A stretch of DNA of 62,519 bases from Phormidium tenue FACHB-886 (GTDB lineage Bacteria > Cyanobacteriota > Cyanobacteriia > Elainellales > Elainellaceae). The notes under the pieces are model-generated. The model was not told the origin of the DNA. It made no database searches and worked only from the letters and a program-made list of their open reading frames with translations. This document shows, in pieces, positions 794 through 14,600 of the stretch; the stretch's first letter is position 1; each line of letters opens with the position of its first letter. The stretch is from contig NZ_JACXWX010000029.1 in NCBI RefSeq assembly GCF_014764505.1, positions 1 to 62,519 on the forward strand. The letters are read 5' to 3'. Made by a program: the position numbers and the translations under genes.

Positions 794-2458
794 TTACCTG
801 GGCTGAGGTTCAAATGTTTTGAGGATGGCCGCTCGATCGCCCAACAGCACTTCAGAAGAGAGTATCTTCCATTTATATTGCACATCTCGCTGTCCATTGG
901 CGATCGCCTGCCGTTGTAATGCTTCTGCCCAGCCCGAATGCATGAGGTGTAAACAGAGGGCATGTAGTCGCCCAGAGTTTCGCTTTTGAGCATATTCTAC
1001 ATTTACCTGAGCAAGTGAGCGCTCGATAGCAGGCATGAGCATGTGTTGTATCCAGCGATCGCTCCGTTCTTCCAGCAATTCAAGATATAGGTAATAGCGC
1101 ATCTGATCTAGGTTCGGCACCAAACAGTATTGTTTAACCGCTAGATCAAATTCCTGTTCCATGTGCTTCATTGCCATGATAATGTGGTTGACATGTAGCT
1201 TTTCTCCGGTCAGGTTGCTCATATCTTTTCCTTTGCGAACAAACGTTAGAATAGGAGCCTGGTAGTAAAATCCGGTGACTTTTACAATGTCATTGATATG
1301 GTAACGGTAGAGTCCGGCGGAAGTGGTTAGCAAAATGCTGTACTGTTTACCCAGCTCTAGTTCATGACTCAGATGAATTGGTGGATTGGGTTCATCGATC
1401 TTGTCTTCTGGAATGAATTCATAGTAGTTGAGTGTTAGGTCGAGAATGCCATTGGGGGTGTGGTCTTGATGCGGTAACGTGATCCGGGCTTCGCTTGCCA
1501 TATAACCCAGATCGCGAACTGGCACACTGCCGTATTCAGCTGCCAACCGTTCTGCTTGGATTCCTACACTGCCGCCCGTCCAGCAGCTCAATAGCTTTAA
1601 ATCAGTCCAACAGTCTTTGGGACGCAGGGCATCGGTGGTTTCGGCAATTTGTTCTAACTGCCGCGATCGCTGCGGCTGCGGCTTCAACCAGGCTTGTAGC
1701 CGCCGTTGTAGGGGTGGTTCTGCCGCAAATCCTAACGTGCCGTCGTGAATGGCGCGAATCAACCCTTCGCGATGAGTCGTCATCACCTGCGCCAATCGCA
1801 TCAGCGTGCTGGGATTGGGTGTTGTCAAGAAGGAAAGCTGCCGCGCCAGGGCAAAACGGGCGATCGCCAGATATCGAGTATCGTAATCCTTTAGTTCAAA
1901 TACGGGGTAGGGAATGGCATAGGAGCGTTGAACGATCCAGGGAATCTGTTGATAGATCCGTCCAGAGACGCTGCCGTAGGGAATTCCGCAGGCGGTGTAG
2001 CCTTCCACTGCGGCACTAACAATACCTGCGCTGGCACGATTGAGAAACTGAGGATGGTCGCTCAAGGCACGGTAGAGCCATTGCCGCATCAGGTTGGAGC
2101 CACCCTGCTCAGACGAAGGGGTAACGGGAATGTATTTGGGTTGCCCGGTTGTGCCGCTGGTGAGGGTGAATAGCTGCACGGGTTCATTCACCAACAGGTT
2201 TGGCTCTCCTCGCATCATGCGGTTAATGTAGGGACGAAATCCTTCATAGTCTTGTATGGGCACCGCATAGCGATAGTCCTCTGGTGTATGGATTTGAGCG
2301 AAATGATGTGCCTGCCCAAATACAGTGGTGTGATGACGAGTCAGCAATTGTTGAAGCAGCGATCGCTGAACCGCTTCTGGCGCCTGTGCCGCTGCATCAA
2401 ATCGTTGCGCCAGAAATTGACCGTTCCACTGAACGGCAGCCCTGAGTAGGATAGACAT
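794..2458 (-). CDS. GH3-family acyl-acid amido synthetase
   Basis: A 554-residue protein of the GH3 branch of the ANL adenylating enzymes. Plant members adenylate a carboxylic acid (jasmonate, indole acetate, benzoates) with ATP and pass it to an amino acid. All three family motifs are visible: the P-loop TSGTTGQPK at residues 100-108, the YMASE motif at 319-323, and YRYHIND at 384-390 with its ATP-contacting Asp. Length is normal for the family. Bacterial GH3 proteins are mostly uncharacterised, so acid and amine are unknown. It is the last gene of a minus-strand operon, 75 bp after the enolase-like gene, so its acid substrate may be made by the two upstream enzymes (inference). The ATG at 2458 has no clear Shine-Dalgarno. 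Confidence 0.85.
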   Translation of the reverse strand: MSILLRAAVQWNGQFLAQRFDAAAQAPEAVQRSLLQQLLTRHHTTVFGQAHHFAQIHTPEDYRYAVPIQDYEGFRPYINRMMRGEPNLLVNEPVQLFTLTSGTTGQPKYIPVTPSSEQGGSNLMRQWLYRALSDHPQFLNRASAGIVSAAVEGYTACGIPYGSVSGRIYQQIPWIVQRSYAIPYPVFELKDYDTRYLAIARFALARQLSFLTTPNPSTLMRLAQVMTTHREGLIRAIHDGTLGFAAEPPLQRRLQAWLKPQPQRSRQLEQIAETTDALRPKDCWTDLKLLSCWTGGSVGIQAERLAAEYGSVPVRDLGYMASEARITLPHQDHTPNGILDLTLNYYEFIPEDKIDEPNPPIHLSHELELGKQYSILLTTSAGLYRYHINDIVKVTGFYYQAPILTFVRKGKDMSNLTGEKLHVNHIIMAMKHMEQEFDLAVKQYCLVPNLDQMRYYLYLELLEERSDRWIQHMLMPAIERSLAQVNVEYAQKRNSGRLHALCLHLMHSGWAEALQRQAIANGQRDVQYKWKILSSEVLLGDRAAILKTFEPQPR

Positions 2459-2533
2459 GGGAATAAATGCTCTAAGGATTCGTAGGATGGATTAGCAGCA
2501 GCGCCACCGATGCAGGTGTTGTGTTTATCCCCA

Positions 2534-3715
2534 TCAGCCCAAGCCGGGCACCGATGCGGTGGCTAGATTGATCGTTTGGTGAGCATATTTTTCCAAAACG
2601 GCATCTTTAACATCAACTCCTAATCCTGGTCGAGTCAACACTTTTGCCTGTCCACGATGCCCAAAGTGAATGCTGGTGCGGCTGACATCTTCACTTAACA
2701 ACAACGTGCCATAGGAGCCTTCCGCAAACACCACCTCTGGTAGCCATGCCGCCAAGTGTCGTCCTGCCGCTGAAAGAATTGCCGTTTCACCCACCTGGCA
2801 GCCGACCTGAAGCTGAATTCCAGACGCTTGAGCCAGTTGAGCGATCGCAATGGTACGTGCCAATCCTCCACATTTTGAAATCCGTAGATTGAAGAACTGA
2901 CACGCTCTTGCTGCGATCAGTGCTTGAGCATCCTCCAGGGTAGTCAAAGATTCATCTGCCATTTGGGGAATGGGAGAGGCTGAGCGCACAGCTGCCAGAT
3001 CTGCCGGGTTGCCGCGCGATATCATTTGTTCGGTGCTGTCAATTTTGAATTCTGCCAACGTTTGACAGGCAGCAATGGCAGACTGAACTGAATAAACCCC
3101 ATTGCCATCAATTCGCAAAGATAGGTCATCTCCCACCGTCTCACGAATGGCAGCAATGCGATCGCGATCATTCTCTCCTGTGACTTTCACTTTGAGCTGC
3201 GAAATTCCCAGTTGCTTAAAGCGCCTGGCGTTCTTCACGGCTGACTCAACCGTGCTGGATGTGATCACACCACTGTAGGTGATAAAAGAACGCTGAGGAG
3301 GAAGCAATTCTCCTAACGAGCGTTGCTGAGACTTGAGCAAACAATCGACCAACGCCAGTTCAAATCCGGTACGGGCCGCATTCCAGGCAATAACAGTATC
3401 AGAAGTTTCAGCAGGGAGGGTGGCGGCGATCGCCTTCAACCAGCTTAATGGGGACTCCAGATCGAGAGGGGCAGTAGAGTAATCAGCCTGCCGCACGGCT
3501 GCCCATAGTGTATTTGTCATAAACTCAAGGCAAGACTCTACCGTTTCCCCAGTCACATAAGGACGAGCCACGGCTTCTCCATAGCCAACGGTGCCGTCTG
3601 ATGCCTTGAGGCGCACGACGATCGAATCGGAATAGGTGCGAGATTTGATGCTGTGGGCAAAGGCTTCTATAAACGGAATCCGTAGTGCAAACAGCGTTGC
3701 TTCAATGATTCTCAT
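2534..3715 (-). CDS. Enolase-superfamily enzyme, MLE subgroup (dipeptide epimerase / OSBS-like)
   Basis: A 393-residue enolase-superfamily enzyme of the muconate-lactonizing subgroup, which abstracts a proton alpha to a carboxylate using Lys acid/bases and Mg2+. Visible residues are the K-x-K pair K175/K177 on the second barrel strand, metal ligands D203, E229 and D254 (in MADES), and the opposing Lys K281 in RISKCGG. This set is shared by dipeptide epimerases, o-succinylbenzoate synthases and N-acylamino-acid racemases. I see no feature that settles the substrate. Its ATG overlaps the stop codon of the diiron gene by 4 bp (ATGA), so translation is probably coupled. A menaquinone role is unlikely, since no men genes are nearby and the partners are a diiron protein and a GH3 enzyme. 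Confidence 0.85.
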   Translation of the reverse strand: MRIIEATLFALRIPFIEAFAHSIKSRTYSDSIVVRLKASDGTVGYGEAVARPYVTGETVESCLEFMTNTLWAAVRQADYSTAPLDLESPLSWLKAIAATLPAETSDTVIAWNAARTGFELALVDCLLKSQQRSLGELLPPQRSFITYSGVITSSTVESAVKNARRFKQLGISQLKVKVTGENDRDRIAAIRETVGDDLSLRIDGNGVYSVQSAIAACQTLAEFKIDSTEQMISRGNPADLAAVRSASPIPQMADESLTTLEDAQALIAARACQFFNLRISKCGGLARTIAIAQLAQASGIQLQVGCQVGETAILSAAGRHLAAWLPEVVFAEGSYGTLLLSEDVSRTSIHFGHRGQAKVLTRPGLGVDVKDAVLEKYAHQTINLATASVPGLG

Positions 3716-4428
3716 GCCATTGGCTCCAGCATTTGAGTTTCGGTTGCCAGGGCGATCGCACCAAAATAGCGCTTGATGAAGATGTTTTCGCGGAAGGTAA
3801 TGTCGAGAATAGCCTCTAGTTCTGATGGGTCAATCTCGTAGTAGTCCACATAGTGCGCGACTGACACTAAGCCCTCTTCAGCATGGCGAATATCCACTTC
3901 AGAGTGGTGATAAAACCATTCCAGATGGTTTAGGGATAGCTGCCGATGGGTTTCTAACGCTTTACCGATGCGGCTTGAGAGCCGAGATAACATCCACTCA
4001 AAACAGGTTACTTCTAACAGGATGGATAACCCCAATTCCTTTATCGTGCCAAACATCAGGGGATCGGTACACATCACCCGGAGTTGTTCTTGGGCGGCAC
4101 GAGTTAGCTCAGTCTGCGCTGTTTCGTCAAACCCTGCTGCTGCTGCTAACTGGTACAGCAACCCTGGATGGGAAATTCCTGCTTCATCTAATCCCAGCTC
4201 TTCCAGCATGTTGTGCCTGATTTGCAGTGCCGCTTCCGGAGGGGAAACTGCATAGAGAAATGCCAAAATCTGCGGGCTCTTTAAGTGGGTTTGACACAAG
4301 TTAGCAATGAATTGGTCGTAGAACTCGACTAGAGCTTTGCCAGATTCTAACTGCTGAAAGCTAGATGAATGTTCAAAGAACTTAACCTGTGCTGCGTACT
4401 GAGATTCGATTAAGGAGTGAATATTCAT
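3712..4428 (-). CDS. Heme-oxygenase-like diiron oxidase/oxygenase (HDO; CADD/TenA-like fold)
   Basis: A 238-residue all-helical protein of the TenA/PqqC-like fold that carries the diiron pattern of the HDO superfamily (UndA, BesC, SznF, CADD). Counting from the ATG at 4428, there is an acidic cluster around E76/E77/E82, H87 (ISHPG), E139 (LLEVT), then H175, D179 and H182 in HHSEVDIRH. The last three lie almost exactly where I recall the CADD ligands. Family members use O2 to cleave or desaturate fatty acids or amino acids, or to N-hydroxylate. Some are self-sacrificing. An in-frame GTG at 4470 could extend the protein by 14 residues; neither start has a good ribosome site. It is the first gene of the operon and overlaps the enolase-like gene. 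Confidence 0.75.
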   Translation of the reverse strand: MNIHSLIESQYAAQVKFFEHSSSFQQLESGKALVEFYDQFIANLCQTHLKSPQILAFLYAVSPPEAALQIRHNMLEELGLDEAGISHPGLLYQLAAAAGFDETAQTELTRAAQEQLRVMCTDPLMFGTIKELGLSILLEVTCFEWMLSRLSSRIGKALETHRQLSLNHLEWFYHHSEVDIRHAEEGLVSVAHYVDYYEIDPSELEAILDITFRENIFIKRYFGAIALATETQMLEPMA

Positions 4429-4604
4429 AATGTTGAAGCGTAGTGTTTGAGAGTGCGCTAGTTGATGCACTTTCTGGTTGTATTGCGTCTTACATTATTG
4501 AAGGATTCAGCGTGGGCGATCGCAACCAGTGTTGAACTTTTCAAGTTGTCCCAAATTTTCGTTCTTCTTCTGGACGGATAAAAGTTACTGAAACTCCAGC
4601 TTAT

Positions 4605-4840
4605 ATCCATCGCTACAAGCTGAGCTTTCGCAACATTGCGGAGTTTTTTCTGCTGCGTGGGTTCGATTTTACTGATGAAATAGTGCGGGATTGGAAGGAA
4701 CGCTTTGCTGCAATTTTCGCCCAGCAGTTGAGAGCGAAACGCAAAGGCAAAGTCGGCAAGATCTGGTTTGTGGACGAAACTTATATCCGAGGCAGAGGCA
4801 GAGGATGCTATCTGTATCGTCTGCCAGAATTTGAGGGAGA
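4605..4840 (+). pseudogene. N-terminal half of an IS6-like DDE transposase
   Basis: The frame containing RYKLSFRNIAEFFLLRG, then RDWKERFAAIF and KIWFVDETYIRGRGR is the N-terminal part of an IS6-family transposase: the helix-turn-helix region and the first Asp of the DDE triad in WFVDETY. Similarity stops soon after CYLYR, where unrelated DNA (a CheB scrap) begins. No start codon is preserved. The missing C-terminal half of the same type of protein lies at 7945-8323 in the same orientation, 3.1 kb away. Confidence 0.7.
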
Positions 4841-4844
4841 AGGC

Positions 4845-4985
4845 TGGGCTTGTCGGCAGTCAGCGTCATTTGAGTGTTGGGCGGAATCACATAAACATGA
4901 TTCGGCTCCACCTTCATGCCGTTCTGCACTTCGCGCACGGGCAGCAATGTAGTTCTGGCAAGAATCTCAACGAGCAGCTGTAAGC
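4845..4985 (-). pseudogene. Fragment of a CheB-type methylesterase gene
   Basis: On the minus strand the codons below 4985 read EILARTTLLPVREVQNG, then VEPNHVYVIPPNTQM and a few more residues before entering antisense transposase sequence. This matches the CheB methylesterase core segment (GM.VEPNHVYVIPPN), as found in CheB or CheB/CheR fusion proteins. About 40 residues remain, with neither start nor end, so it is a relic. It abuts the transposase half at about 4845, which looks like an IS-mediated deletion joint. Confidence 0.6.
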
Positions 4986-5176: not shown

Positions 5177-5887
5177 TTACAATGCGCCGTGTTTGACCCC
5201 CAGCAAGCGATCGTATTCCTCTTTGAGCATGTGGAAACATTCACAGGAGCAGCCTTCTAACCCAGTTCGGTCAAGAATGTGAATGTCTCCCCGATGGTAA
5301 CCAATCACACCCTTTTCCTGCAGCTTTTGCGCTGTTTGAGTGACCCCAGCACGACGGACTCCCAGCATATCCGCTATAAACTCCTGGGTCAGGGTTAATT
5401 CATCTCCTTCCACTCGGTCATGCACTTCCAGTAACCAGCGAGCCAATCGCTGATCGATTCGATGCAGGCTGTTACAGGCGGTGGTCTGTGAAATTTGAGC
5501 GATAAAGGCTTGAGTGTAGCGCAGCATGACATCGCGCAGATCTTGATTGCGATCGAACTCCTCTCGCAAGATTCGAGCATCGATCTGCAGGGCATTCCCT
5601 GCATGCTGCACAATATAGGTGGTTTGCGTTGTCTCTCTGCCTCCCATAAAAGCGTTGACTCCCAGCACTTCCCGGTTGCCAACCAGTCCAGTTTCAGCCG
5701 TGGTGCCATCGCTCATCGCAATCGTGATCGAAAGCACGCAATCAAGGGGGAAGTAAAGCTGGCGAATCTCTTCACCTGGCTCATGCAGGCGGTCGCCCAG
5801 TTGCAACGAGACGCTTTTCAAGGCAGGAGCAAGTTTTGCAGATAGGGCGTGAGGCATGGCATCAAACAGACGGTTTTTAGTCGCCAT
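5177..5887 (-). CDS. Crp/Fnr-family transcriptional regulator
   Basis: A 236-residue regulator with an N-terminal cyclic-nucleotide-binding-like beta barrel (residues about 15-130, including LYFPLDCVLS and NREVLGVNAFMGG) and a C-terminal winged helix (about 150-215, LTQEFIADMLGVRRAGVTQ). The canonical cAMP-contacting Arg/Ser pair of CRP is not evident, so the effector is unknown. The tail GCSCECFHMLKEEYDRLL, with three Cys, is typical of a widespread Crp-like subgroup. GAGG stands 5-6 nt before the ATG at 5887. The gene is isolated between mobile-element relics. The long minus-strand frame inside it (5395-5709) is a shadow. Confidence 0.85.
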   Translation of the reverse strand: MATKNRLFDAMPHALSAKLAPALKSVSLQLGDRLHEPGEEIRQLYFPLDCVLSITIAMSDGTTAETGLVGNREVLGVNAFMGGRETTQTTYIVQHAGNALQIDARILREEFDRNQDLRDVMLRYTQAFIAQISQTTACNSLHRIDQRLARWLLEVHDRVEGDELTLTQEFIADMLGVRRAGVTQTAQKLQEKGVIGYHRGDIHILDRTGLEGCSCECFHMLKEEYDRLLGVKHGAL

Positions 5888-6305: not shown

Positions 6306-7043
6306 CTAGGTAACTAATCCTGCCCGCAAGCCACGCACCGCAGCTTGAGTTCGATCATCCGCACTCAGTTTGTTGAGGATGTTTCGGACGTGTGTCTTAA
6401 CCGTTCCCACGGTAATGTAGCAGCGACTGGCAATATCGGCGTTACTACAGCCTGCCACAATTAGTTCCAAGATTTCTAATTCTCGGACCGTCAAAGGAGT
6501 GACTGCCAGCATTTCTGTATAGTCATCATCAGCATTGATCTCAACGCTGAGAGGGCGAGAGGCATTATGGGGGGCTGCCATCGGCTGCAGCTTCTGATTG
6601 TGTTGCAGAACGATGCGAGCGATCGCCGGGTCAATCCAGTGGTTACCCTCATAGGTATTCTGGACTGCTCGCAGTAGGAGATTTTTATTCAAATCCTTCA
6701 TACAGTAAGAATCGGCCCCGGCTGAAAAAGCAGCGAGAACTGCTTGCTCATTGTCTTGCATCGTCAGAATTAGAATTTTGGTTGGAACGGCTTCAGCTTG
6801 CTCCAAATCTGCTTGCAATTGCTTGAATTGCTGGGTTAGCTCAATGCCGTCGAGCAGCGGTAGACCAATATCGATGATGGCAATGTCTGGCTGAGTAGTG
6901 GTCAGGAGTTCTAACCCATCTCTTCCATTTGTTGCTTCACCCACAACGGTAACGGTATTCTCATCCCACTGCTCTAACATAATTCGCAGTCCCATGCGCG
7001 TCAGGTCATGGTCTTCGATCAAGGCAACGCGAATATTATTCAT
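6306..7043 (-). CDS. NarL/FixJ-type response regulator with LuxR DNA-binding domain
   Basis: A 245-residue two-component response regulator. The receiver (residues 1-130) has the early acidic pair in ALIEDHD, the phosphoacceptor Asp in AIIDIGLP, and the conserved Lys in YCMKDL. A linker of about 40 residues leads to a LuxR helix-turn-helix with LTVRELEILELIVAG and GTVKTHVRNILNKL. No sensor kinase is adjacent. The same recognition helix sequence recurs almost exactly in the receiver-less regulator at 41960, so the two may bind similar sites (inference). The ATG at 7043 opens the receiver in the expected register. Confidence 0.9.
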   Translation of the reverse strand: MNNIRVALIEDHDLTRMGLRIMLEQWDENTVTVVGEATNGRDGLELLTTTQPDIAIIDIGLPLLDGIELTQQFKQLQADLEQAEAVPTKILILTMQDNEQAVLAAFSAGADSYCMKDLNKNLLLRAVQNTYEGNHWIDPAIARIVLQHNQKLQPMAAPHNASRPLSVEINADDDYTEMLAVTPLTVRELEILELIVAGCSNADIASRCYITVGTVKTHVRNILNKLSADDRTQAAVRGLRAGLVT

Positions 7044-11648: not shown

Positions 11649-14600
11649 CTAATCCGCGATCGCTGCATCAATATGAGCCTGAATTTCTTTAGCAATTACC
11701 TGGACATTGGGTTCTTGAAGCATACTGGAATGTCCGCCAGGGACATCATAGACCTGGACTGTTTCGGTGGTTCGTTTGCCCCAGCCTAACACTGGATCAC
11801 TATAAAGCTCAGCGTAAGGAGTGTCATCAATCAGCGTATTATCAAAAATGCTGCTTTTCTGAGTGGCTCGGAAGAGCAATAGTTCTCCTGCAAACCGCCC
11901 CTGCACCTCATAGTCGTGCTGTGCCCAAAGCAAAACCTTTCGGACTGGAATCCCCTGCAGCACTTTGGGTACAGGAAGATCTTTGTCCAGGAAGGTTCTC
12001 AATAGCCTTAGCTGCAAGCGATCGCAGAGGTCTTCAACTCGCTTCTGAGACTCATAAGCAATCAAGTTGGTTGCTTTTTTTCTGACCTGATTCAGGATGT
12101 AAAGCAACCGTTCGTGCGATTTAAGATGATGATTGCTACTCAATACTTTTGAAAAACTGTTTAAGCGTTGGTCGGCAACATATCCGGTTCGTTGAGCGGC
12201 TCCAAAATCAGCCGCATCAATAATCGCAACCATCCCGATCGGCTCTCCTTGTCGTTGAAGCTGCAGAGCCATCTCACAGGCCAACATGCCCCCGACACAC
12301 AAGCCTCCTAAAAAGTAGGGTCCTTGCGGTTGCACCTGGCGAATTTGCTCAATGTAGTAATCAACGATGCTTGAAATTCGGGTATGGAGGATCGGACAGT
12401 GATTGGAACTATAGGGCTGGATCCCGTAGACTGGCACTTCTGGGTCTAGCGCATAGGCTAACGAACGATAGAGCAGCGTTTCGCCATCCCCATCGTGGAT
12501 CAAGAAAACGGGTGGTTTTGCCTGTCCGGCTTTGAGCAACACCAGGGAATCCTGCAAGCGAGTCTGGTTGGGCTGCAAGATAGCTGTAAGCTGTTCAATG
12601 GTGGGGGCAGATAGCAGCGTGCTGAGCGGTAGCCGTTTACCCAATTTCTTCTCAATCTGAGCAAACATCTGCACTGCCAAGAGCGAATCGCCTCCCAGCT
12701 CAAAAAAATCATTCTGGATGCCAATCGGTTCAATTCCAAGAACGGCTTCCCAGATTTCGATGAGCTGCTGCTCCCATTCATTTTGAGGCGGGACGATTGT
12801 TTGCAGACCAACCAAGTTCTCAGCGGTGGGCAGCGGCAACGCTCGACGATCGACTTTTTGATTTGGGTTGAGGGGCATGGCCTCCAGCACCACAAACGCA
12901 GCAGGAACCATGTAGTCTGGTAATTTGGTTTGCAAAAAGCGATGGATCGCCTCGATCGAAGGATTCTGCGATAAATCCAACACTACGTAGGCGACTAATC
13001 TTGCTTCACTGCTTCCAAATTCACGAGCCATGACGACACCTTCCCGAACACCCGGTGCCTGTCGCAGGGCTGCCTCAATGTCGCCCAGCTCAATGCGAAT
13101 TCCCCGCAGCTTAATCTGAAAATCTGCACGTCCTAGAAATTCTAGATTGCCATCAGCTCCGAAGCGCCCCAAATCTCCAGTGCGGTAAAACCGTTGTCCG
13201 TCGATCGTAACAAATTTCTCTTGGGTTAGTTCTTCACGGTTAAGATAGCCTTTTGTCACGCCTGCGCCGCCGATATGAATCTCGCCAGGGATGCCGATCG
13301 GCAGCAGGTTTTGCTGCGAATCATAGAGACGAATAGAGACGTTATTGAAGGGTTTACCAATTCGACTTTTTGTCAGGACTTGATCTCGCGGAACAGGGTA
13401 GGTAGCACACAAAGAGCTAACTTCACTACAGCCATAAAGAACGGCAACATTCGCGTTCTGAAAAACACGCTTCATCTCTTCTAGTAGGTCAGGAGAGACT
13501 GTATCTCCTCCGGTAAATACGTGTTTAACACCTTGAAACTTTTGGATAGGTATTCCGTTATCCTTGATGTAGCCCAATAGCTTCTGCATTAAACTTGGAA
13601 CGGTATGAATCATGGTCAACTGTTCCAAGGTTTGAACCATTTGAGCGAAATCTAAAACATGTTCTCGCGCAAGAATGACGAGCTTTCCACCCGCAGCCAG
13701 CGGAGATAATAGCTCGAACATCGCAATGCTAAAGGTATAGCGAGCGATCGAAGGCATAACGTCATGATGGTCGAAGCCAAGCCGCTCTTGGGTGGCAAGA
13801 ATATAGTTCACCAAGTTTCTGTGGCTTGCCATCACTCCCTTTGGCTTTCCAGTTGTGCCGGAGGTGTAAATGATGTAGGCAGTTTGGTCAGGAGAAATCT
13901 CGTTTCCGGGATTGTGGCTGGAAAACGAATTAATTATTTCCCAATCCTGGTCAAGACAAATAGTGTGTTCTGCGATCGCAGGTAGTTTCGGTTGTAGCTG
14001 CGCTTGTGTCAGTAAAACTTTCGCCTGCGTATCTTCCAAAATTGCCGTCAGACGATCTTTAGGGTGGGTTGAGTCGAGGGGAACATAGACCCCGCCTGCC
14101 TTGAGGATAGCCAACAGACTAACAGCAATCTCTGCGGAGGGTTGGACACAAACCGCCACTCGAACTTCTGCCCCAACTCCAATATGAGTTAAATAATGAG
14201 CAAGCTGATTGGCACGCTGGTTTAACTCTGCATAAGTCAATTCTTGCCCGTTGCAGGTCAGCGCGATCTGGGCAGGATTTTGTGCGGCATGCGCTTCAAT
14301 ATGCTGATAAATAGGACACTGTGGATAGTTAACCGACGCACTATTCCACTCTATTAGCAGTTGATGTTGCTCTGCTTGCGTCAATAAAGGTAACTGCCCA
14401 ATAGAATGATCTAAATCTTGGCTAATTCCTAATAGTAAGACCTGAAAGTGATCCGATAAGCGTTGAACTGTCTCTGCTGTAAAAAGATTAGAATTGTATA
14501 TAAAAGTTCCAGAAATTTGTTGTTCTTGCTGAACAATGACAAGATTTAAGTCTAAATTGTTGATGCATCTGTGGTTTTGCTGCTGAACCTTTAAAATTCT

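Follow-up and report, generated by a model that had tools for sequence, protein, structure and literature searches.

Among bacterial enzymes of the GH3 family, planctomycete OlsH converts fatty acids and ornithine to N-acyl-ornithine, while the O-acyl transfer falls to OlsI, of the alpha/beta-hydrolase superfamily; two cyanobacterial GH3 sequences stand in the tree of the same paper, with no function given in the part of it accessible to us (PMC12493201). The substrates of characterised heme-oxygenase-like dimetal oxidases (HDOs) are predominantly fatty or amino acids, and a 3H/3C ligand pattern is described for these enzymes, according to the accessible part of a review (PMC13108848) whose full text mentions GH3 0 times. 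HDOs have also been surveyed beside ATP-grasp ligases, in clusters of the mangotoxin type (PMC13185094), in work that counts at least 19,778 putative HDOs; as far as accessible, its text contains none of the terms GH3, enolase, racemase and cyanobacteri-. Here we describe an operon from Phormidium tenue FACHB-886 that combines an HDO, an enolase-superfamily enzyme of the MLE type (ENO) and a GH3 amide synthetase. It lies on contig NZ_JACXWX010000029.1, the 62,519 nucleotides of which are referred to as the window. We read this operon, tentatively and with somewhat less than even confidence, as encoding a short route from an oxidised carboxylic acid to an amide. A sequence-only reading of the window had known of no described pathway with this trio, and among the matches listed in the open-access literature we likewise found no description of HDO, enolase and GH3 together; subscription papers lie mostly outside that literature, and novelty is not proven by this. 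The operon is apparently conserved and undescribed.

The operon is a variant on known kinds, namely HDO-ligase clusters and GH3 amide synthesis. With the OlsH/OlsI pathway it has in common a bacterial GH3, which there joins a fatty and an amino acid with ATP, and an alpha/beta-hydrolase partner in the operon, here called C3. However, the pathway described in the accessible part of PMC12493201 has no HDO or enolase, and C3 is of the CocE/S15 type, nearest to cocaine esterase. Assignment of the window GH3 as an OlsH-type lyso-ornithine lipid synthetase was rejected at 85.6 bits against an NCBIfam equivalog cut-off of 620. The mangotoxin-type clusters, as described in the accessible text of PMC13185094, also pair an HDO with an amide-forming ligase, but that ligase is of the ATP-grasp type instead of GH3, and ENO and the C4/C3 genes are extra here. 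The known HDO enzymes CADD, HrmI, UndA, FlcD and SznF, as covered in the accessible part of PMC13108848, resemble the window HDO in fold and 3H/3C ligand pattern, whereas sequence identity is 9-18% and Lys152 of CADD is not conserved. ENO has the fold family, the KxK motif, the D/E/D metal ligands and the second Lys of the MLE-subgroup enzymes (dipeptide epimerases, N-succinylamino acid racemases and muconate cycloisomerases) but differs from them in its separate clade, in E-G-(S/A)-x replacing the epimerase D-x-D, and in scores below the NCBIfam cut-offs.

The genomic distribution supports the trio as one conserved, co-inherited unit. An HDO scan with single-sequence peptide seeds over one genome per species, a design that recovers close relatives only, yielded 16 loci, all of them cyanobacterial. 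By tblastn, 16/16 of these loci carry HDO, ENO and GH3 on one strand and in unchanged order, which argues for more than chance. The neighbourhood survey proposed in the sequence-only reading thus found the three genes together, with a divergent trio in another class besides, and the failure to co-occur that was named there as its refutation was not seen. One locus (L007, Cyanobacteria bacterium FACHB-471) is a near relative of the window, with 94-97% identity, and the other 15 are 53-70% identical; measured against L007, the dN/dS ratios of the three genes are 0.112, 0.120 and 0.150. Pairwise protein distances of HDO, ENO and GH3 correlate at 0.975-0.983 over 18 copies and at 0.977-0.981 without L026, and 0 of 2000 permutations were as high for each pair. 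Such correlation is a mark of shared history, through vertical descent or joint transfer, and not by itself of shared function.

Beyond the close relatives the set is rare and patchy. HDO was found in two of the 60 relatives searched, the own genome and G017. Searches in distant genomes were confined to Cyanobacteriota, with a sample of 386 genomes of that phylum, in which HDO is present in four (own, G060, G073 and G107; E <= 1e-20), ENO in three (own, G060 and G073; E <= 1e-70) and C4 in one, G060 (E <= 1e-5). The GH3 family is common (31/386 genomes at E <= 1e-60), with trio-type GH3s scoring 1005 and 524 bits and the remaining ones 365 bits or less. G060 belongs to another class of the same phylum, and HDO, ENO and GH3 recur there at 41, 46 and 43% identity to the window, respectively, with a C4-C3 pair (56 and 49% identity) ~22 kb from the trio on the same contig; three of the 18 genomes of its class have HDO. 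Searches for HDO gave no match in plasmids and, in viral contigs, 20 pattern matches of which none was confirmed.

The operon is usually longer than the trio. Neighbour clustering over 17 loci (the window operon and the 16 others) revealed two more recurrent genes downstream of GH3, C4 and C3, which follow in most loci; besides these five, no family occurs in more than 4/17 of the clustered loci, and most of the rarer neighbours were left unannotated. C4, a small hydrophobic membrane protein of ~150 amino acids, was found by tblastn in 12/16 loci. It has no family match in Pfam or NCBIfam and no match in plasmids, and its structure model (pLDDT 56.4) was too poor for a structure search. C3, a CocE-type alpha/beta-hydrolase of ~600 amino acids, was found by tblastn in 11/16 loci and contains Peptidase_S15 and PepX_C domains (CocE_NonD 412.6 bits); cocaine esterase is its best solved relative (1.6e-106). 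One strongly hydrophobic stretch at its N-terminus (residues 15-46 in L006) is probably a signal or anchor. Locus L009 ends within C4, and in that genome C3 stands at the end of another contig. Four loci (L007, L016, L017 and L020) have neither gene; a C3 orthologue elsewhere gave no match in three of these genomes (E <= 1e-60), and the L007 genome has a paralogue at 35% identity. In the window and its own genome we likewise found no C4 and, for C3, a paralogue at 32%. Because IS240-type transposase remnants flank the operon, insertion-sequence activity may be the cause of this loss in the window lineage. One remnant lies upstream of the window HDO (4683-4865; 23.2 bits, under the cut-off of 27) and another just after GH3 in L007 (10085-10399; 6e-27). 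As separate observations, C3 of L012 (Calothrix sp. PCC 7716; 11957-13286) consists of two overlapping reading frames with an apparent frameshift, and in G060 a gene for a pyridoxal-phosphate enzyme of Cys/Met metabolism (L062 4421-5452) follows C3 at ~0.8 kb on the same strand.

HDO is best read as a predicted non-heme dimetal oxidase. Its AlphaFold2 model, built from 20 aligned sequences (mean pLDDT 92.5, pTM 0.89), is predicted to have the seven-helix heme-oxygenase-like fold, and the best structural match is CtCADD (Foldseek 3.7e-6; VIA Z 19.2, root-mean-square deviation 2.9 over 205 residues, 14% identity), followed by lower VIA Z scores for HrmI (17.3), PqqC (16.2), FlcD (15.5), UndA (15.4) and SznF (14.3). 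The putative 3H/3C pattern (E76/E77, H87, E144, H175, D179 and H182) is present in 19/20 HDO copies, with L027 as the exception, and H175/D179/H182 together with E76, E77, H87, E139 and E144 are invariant in the 17 closest copies. By sequence, none of the solved HDOs is a near relative; the best match of the profile is CADD, and in that weak alignment (18 bits, E 0.011) H87, E144, H175, D179 and H182 correspond to residues 88, 142, 174, 178 and 181, which we take to be the CADD ligands. The alignment does not reach the N-terminal part, where the counterpart of CADD Tyr27 would lie. CADD itself sacrifices Lys152 (PMC11965152, in its accessible part). By the same weak alignment Lys152 falls on HDO residue 154, a position occupied by I, M or L in 20/20 copies, and among columns 149 to 156 none is Lys throughout (156 is Lys in 10/20). 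A CADD-like self-sacrificing para-aminobenzoate synthase was therefore rejected as unlikely. A TenA thiaminase, which the sequence-only reading had named as the grouping that would count against it, was rejected too: Pfam gives Haem_oxygenas_2 only, the ligand pattern is present, and TenA structures, although they share the fold, score Z ~13-15.5, below the dimetal HDO CADD. Weak matches to TAL effectors, the only ones in a phmmer search of HDO against the Protein Data Bank (PDB; 22 sequences, E 0.00066 or worse), were discarded as chance resemblance between helices.

ENO retains the catalytic residues of the MLE subgroup, as K175, K177, D203, E229, D254 and K281 are identical in 18/18 operon copies, including L026. 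A D-x-D motif near the barrel end is the signature of dipeptide epimerases. In ENO, E332-G333-S334 aligns with D-F-D of 3q45 and D-L-D of H1, and the operon copies have E-G-S-(Y/F) at this place; the motif alone is not decisive, as H3 and H6, plasmid proteins annotated as dipeptide epimerases, also do without D-x-D. The best PDB relative of ENO is 2p88, presumably of the N-succinylamino acid racemase type, and a Glu at the D-x-D position is common to both. The absence of D-x-D and this shared Glu suggest that the substrate of ENO is probably without a free alpha-ammonium group. In the ENO tree, the outgroups of which were 8 of 18 plasmid matches (annotated as dipeptide epimerases, muconate cycloisomerases, an enolase-like protein and MenC) and one paralogue from the own genome, the operon ENOs and the ENO of genome G083 form a separate clade with support of 100/99. 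When the reduced tree, which omitted 11 of 29 rows (three long and eight near-duplicates), was examined by the approximately unbiased test, placement of the G083 ENO with dipeptide epimerases was rejected (p 0.00097), as was placement with MLEs (p 0.00096). A profile of the clade found four of 339 genomes at 416-665 bits, scores that are high by construction because the profile included these four; no further match exceeded 145 bits. Each of the four genes adjoins an oxygenase: HDO in the own genome, G060 and G073 (with its ligands lost in the last), and an FA_hydroxylase in G083. ENO scores under every curated NCBIfam cut-off among the models listed, and three assignments were rejected: dipeptide epimerase (D-x-D lacking, separate clade, cut-offs unmet), muconate cycloisomerase (TIGR02534, 134 of 335 bits) and o-succinylbenzoate synthase (TIGR01928, 91 of 201 bits). 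On these sequence comparisons, no known type of plain epimerase fits ENO.

In GH3 the SGTTG, Y319-x-A-S-E and YRYxIxD motifs are invariant in the 17 closest copies. The best solved relatives of the window enzyme are JAR1 and other plant GH3s, including the auxin GH3s. For the GH3 tree we chose 14 other cyanobacterial and two plasmid GH3s from those found, and the trio GH3s stand apart from all of these together with a fusion protein of G083, a genome of the same class as G060. The fusion is sister to the GH3s of the trios (99/96), and L026 branches next inside (98/93). It is an 879-amino-acid reading frame of uncertain true start, with FA_hydroxylase (9.5e-29) and GH3 (1.7e-54) domains, and is overlapped by an ENO-type gene on the minus strand (L093 4463-5647), so that fusion and ENO together cover L093 1848-5647. 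Identity to the window is 36% for the GH3 part and 32% for ENO. Because the FA_hydroxylase-GH3 fusion stands in for HDO in G083, ENO and GH3 look like the core of the system, with HDO and FA_hydroxylase as candidate alternative oxygenases. FA_hydroxylase proteins are membrane enzymes acting on lipid-like substrates, and their replacement of HDO in G083 suggests that the acid may be lipophilic rather than a free amino acid.

Other cyanobacterial GH3 genes often have hydroxylases nearby. We collected 34 non-trio GH3 loci (L065, L066 and L093-L124), of which 33 cover all 35 non-trio matches among 37 and one is the C179 locus of the own genome; the search used few query proteins (E <= 1e-4), and some flanks end at contig ends. 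FA_hydroxylase genes lie near GH3 in 13/34 of these loci, one of them by a weak match, Asp/Arg beta-hydroxylase-type genes in 5/34 and cupin_8 genes in 5/34, with any of the three in 17/34. The same hydroxylase queries gave 0 matches in 394 kb from 36 partly overlapping loci (the window, the 16 trio loci and the C3 loci). Trio loci without nearby FA_hydroxylase-type genes fit an HDO that fills this role, and there is perhaps a general partnership of GH3 and hydroxylases in cyanobacteria. OlsE and OlsC, which hydroxylate ornithine lipids, are members of the FA_hydroxylase and Asp/Arg beta-hydroxylase families. According to the accessible part of PMC3972451, the ornithine moiety is the target of OlsE, and the fatty acids are hydroxylated by OlsD or OlsC. 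The own genome also has a second GH3 region (L065, contig C13) with two GH3 genes, neighboured by a Rieske oxygenase, a class I/II aminotransferase-family enzyme, a cupin_8-like gene, an Asp/Arg beta-hydroxylase and, by eye, two MFS-like genes.

The sequence-only reading had the three enzymes oxidise and epimerise a carboxylate and conjugate it to an amino acid. This interpretation is partly supported. The succession of oxidation, alpha-carbon chemistry and amidation stands as the best reading, and three points need amending: the unit is more than a trio, as C4 and C3 follow in most loci; the oxygenase is exchangeable, as seen in G083; and ENO, without D-x-D and in its own clade, is no plain epimerase of a known type. 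In the proposed pathway, HDO would use O2 to oxidise a carboxylic acid, probably lipophilic, by hydroxylation, desaturation or C-C cleavage. ENO would then take the alpha proton by means of its Lys/Lys pair and a divalent metal, epimerising or dehydrating the oxidised acid. GH3 would adenylate the acid with ATP and join it to an amine, in the likeliest case an amino acid, as the family and OlsH suggest; by the same comparison the product would be of the N-acyl-amino-acid type and amino-lipid-like. Where present, C4 and the probably signal-anchored C3 may process this product, by hydrolysis or acyl transfer, either at the membrane or outside it, and the window copy would work without them or have lost them. 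Behind this proposal stand the genes with intact active-site residues, their co-inheritance, the longer operon and the one FA_hydroxylase-GH3 swap. The tilt of the acid towards lipid, drawn from that exchange and from the GH3 neighbourhoods, is moderate. A more specific version, in which HDO or a membrane FA_hydroxylase oxidises a fatty-type acid beside the carboxylate, ENO racemises or dehydrates the resulting 2-hydroxy acid and GH3 amidates it, has a fairly low probability.

A peptide-like natural product is a serious rival, though unlikely in our estimate. Here HDO would oxidise an amino acid, ENO racemise an N-acyl amino acid in the manner of N-succinylamino acid racemases and GH3 join the pieces into a secreted small molecule that is not a lipid, with C3 removing a cap extracellularly, much as a prodrug is activated. 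ENO speaks for it through 2p88, a relative presumably of the N-succinylamino acid racemase type, with its common Glu and lack of D-x-D, and so do the S15/CocE hydrolase C3 with one N-terminal hydrophobic stretch and a patchy distribution that fits specialised metabolism; characterised HDOs, moreover, also use amino acids (PMC13108848, in its accessible part). Yet a biosynthetic cluster of this kind receives little from the surroundings, where no other family exceeds 4/17 of the clustered loci, most of the rarer neighbours having been left unannotated, and both the FA_hydroxylase fused to GH3 in place of HDO in G083 and the frequent FA_hydroxylases near other cyanobacterial GH3s point towards lipid instead. 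That the genes serve to inactivate or store an acid, either a signal or a toxic one, which HDO and ENO would modify, GH3 conjugate as with plant auxin and jasmonate, and C3 release again, seems to us improbable. We know of no acid signal of this kind in these bacteria, the likeness of GH3 to plant enzymes holds at the family level only, and the constant partners of GH3 are HDO and ENO and not C3, although JAR1 and the auxin GH3s are its best solved relatives and a conjugating enzyme with a hydrolase does resemble the plant GH3-ILR1 logic (PMC8608799, in its accessible part).

Two further explanations carry much less weight. In a catabolic cluster, ENO would be the cycloisomerase of aromatic degradation, with HDO oxygenating a ring or side chain and GH3 serving as an activating ligase; ENO does match the muconate cycloisomerase model (5.3e-39), but its score is below the cut-off given above, ENO falls outside the MLE clade and no further family recurs in more than 4/17 loci, so that we regard this as very improbable. 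That the three genes are chance neighbours with unrelated jobs is scarcely credible: each family is widespread and the set is broken up in G073 and G107, but the order kept in 16/16 loci, the overlapping genes, the divergent trio in another class and the parallel ENO and GH3 trees all speak against it. The amide pathway from an oxidised acid is the preferred, if tentative, explanation.

Several points weigh against this pathway. The oxygenase swap is known from a single draft genome, G083, whose branches are long in the ENO and GH3 trees alike. The count of 13/34 FA_hydroxylase loci includes L105, a weak match in two pieces (5.8e-5); the 34-locus counts are not independent because related genera recur; and the 394-kb comparison is not a matched control. 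HDO occurs in just the four of 386 phylum genomes listed above, and two of these hold incomplete sets, which weakens a strictly obligatory trio. G107 has a C3 fragment directly before HDO without an adjoining ENO, on a 5.4-kb contig. In G073 an HDO-ENO pair (L027 7110-8976) lacks an adjoining GH3; H87, H175 and H182 of HDO are replaced by E, R and Q, and in ENO K177 is replaced by E, with loss of the catalytic Lys, and N205 by R. We read these two genes as a probably decayed or repurposed pair. The GH3s of both genomes are encoded on other contigs and do not group with the trio GH3s. C3 and C4 are not essential, as the window lineage and three other loci lack both, and with C3 nearest to cocaine esterase, an acyltransferase role like that of OlsI is only putative. 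Lastly, we infer every substrate, reaction and product, the substrates of all the enzymes included.

Bacterial GH3s have few assigned functions, though the family is well known from plant hormones. In named cyanobacterial strains, one bacterial GH3 clade is now linked with a defined oxygenase and with an enolase clade that stands apart, which makes the substrate question directly testable, and the exchange of HDO for FA_hydroxylase gives a specific hint at a lipophilic acid beyond what the trio alone provides. Among the open-access papers listed, none describes an enolase-superfamily enzyme in acyl-amide lipid biosynthesis. If true, the proposed pathway would place such an enzyme there, add a route to acyl amides, and provide a new reaction setting for HDOs and enolases.

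Table 1. Genes of the window operon and candidate metal ligands of its HDO, with window positions
Feature	Position	Strand	Length or residues	Pfam matches
HDO (heme-oxygenase-like dimetal oxidase)	3712..4428	minus	238 aa from ATG at 4428	Haem_oxygenas_2 5.7e-15
HDO candidate ligands			E77 (or E76), H87, E144, H175, D179, H182	
ENO (enolase superfamily, MLE-type, separate clade)	2534..3715	minus	393 aa	MR_MLE_C 3.7e-46, MR_MLE_N 1.1e-4
GH3 amide synthetase	794..2458	minus	554 aa	GH3 4.9e-66, GH3_M 1.2e-22, GH3_C 1.1e-13

The three open reading frames (Table 1) are complete and span window positions 794-4428; an alternative GTG start at 4470 would extend HDO to 252 amino acids. The tight spacing described in the sequence-only reading was confirmed, with an overlap of 4 bp between HDO and ENO and a gap of 75 bp between ENO and GH3. 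The catalytic residues named there are likewise all present, and invariant in the window and the 16 loci, while its P-loop label for GH3 has to be corrected, since family knowledge identifies this element as the SGTTGxPK adenylation loop and not a Walker P-loop. Over 18 copies (the window, the 16 loci and L026), with starts chosen by homology, spacing ranges from -14 to 76 bp between HDO and ENO and from -32 to 324 bp between ENO and GH3.

A Crp-type gene (5177-5887) and a response regulator gene (6306-7043) adjoin the window operon; they gave no tblastn match in L005-L020 and were therefore left out of the operon parts. Phosphate control is without support, because a Pho-box-like octamer upstream of HDO had a single match, in L011, among the 17 loci searched. 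Models of anti-phage defence gave two matches at E ~0.005, which were disregarded. A flippase-like gene, MurJ-like by eye, lies upstream of HDO on the same strand in 4/17 loci of one kindred (L008 1491-3098, L009 4615-6270, L015 6108-7769 and L018 6102-7769) and was taken as shared synteny.

GH3 genes also occur in other settings on plasmids. In Streptomyces sp. SGAir0924 (L061) GH3 is found among a type I polyketide synthase, a P450, an aminotransferase, an F420 oxidoreductase and a threonyl-tRNA ligase, a region that presumably resembles the borrelidin cluster. The likeness to BorL of borrelidin biosynthesis is that of a GH3 protein within a natural-product cluster; in contrast to the trio, the setting is that of polyketides, and this GH3 forms a long branch outside the trio GH3 clade. 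In Citrobacter portucalensis (L060 7884-17110) GH3 stands among several radical SAM proteins, an N-acetyltransferase and a PAP2 phosphatase.

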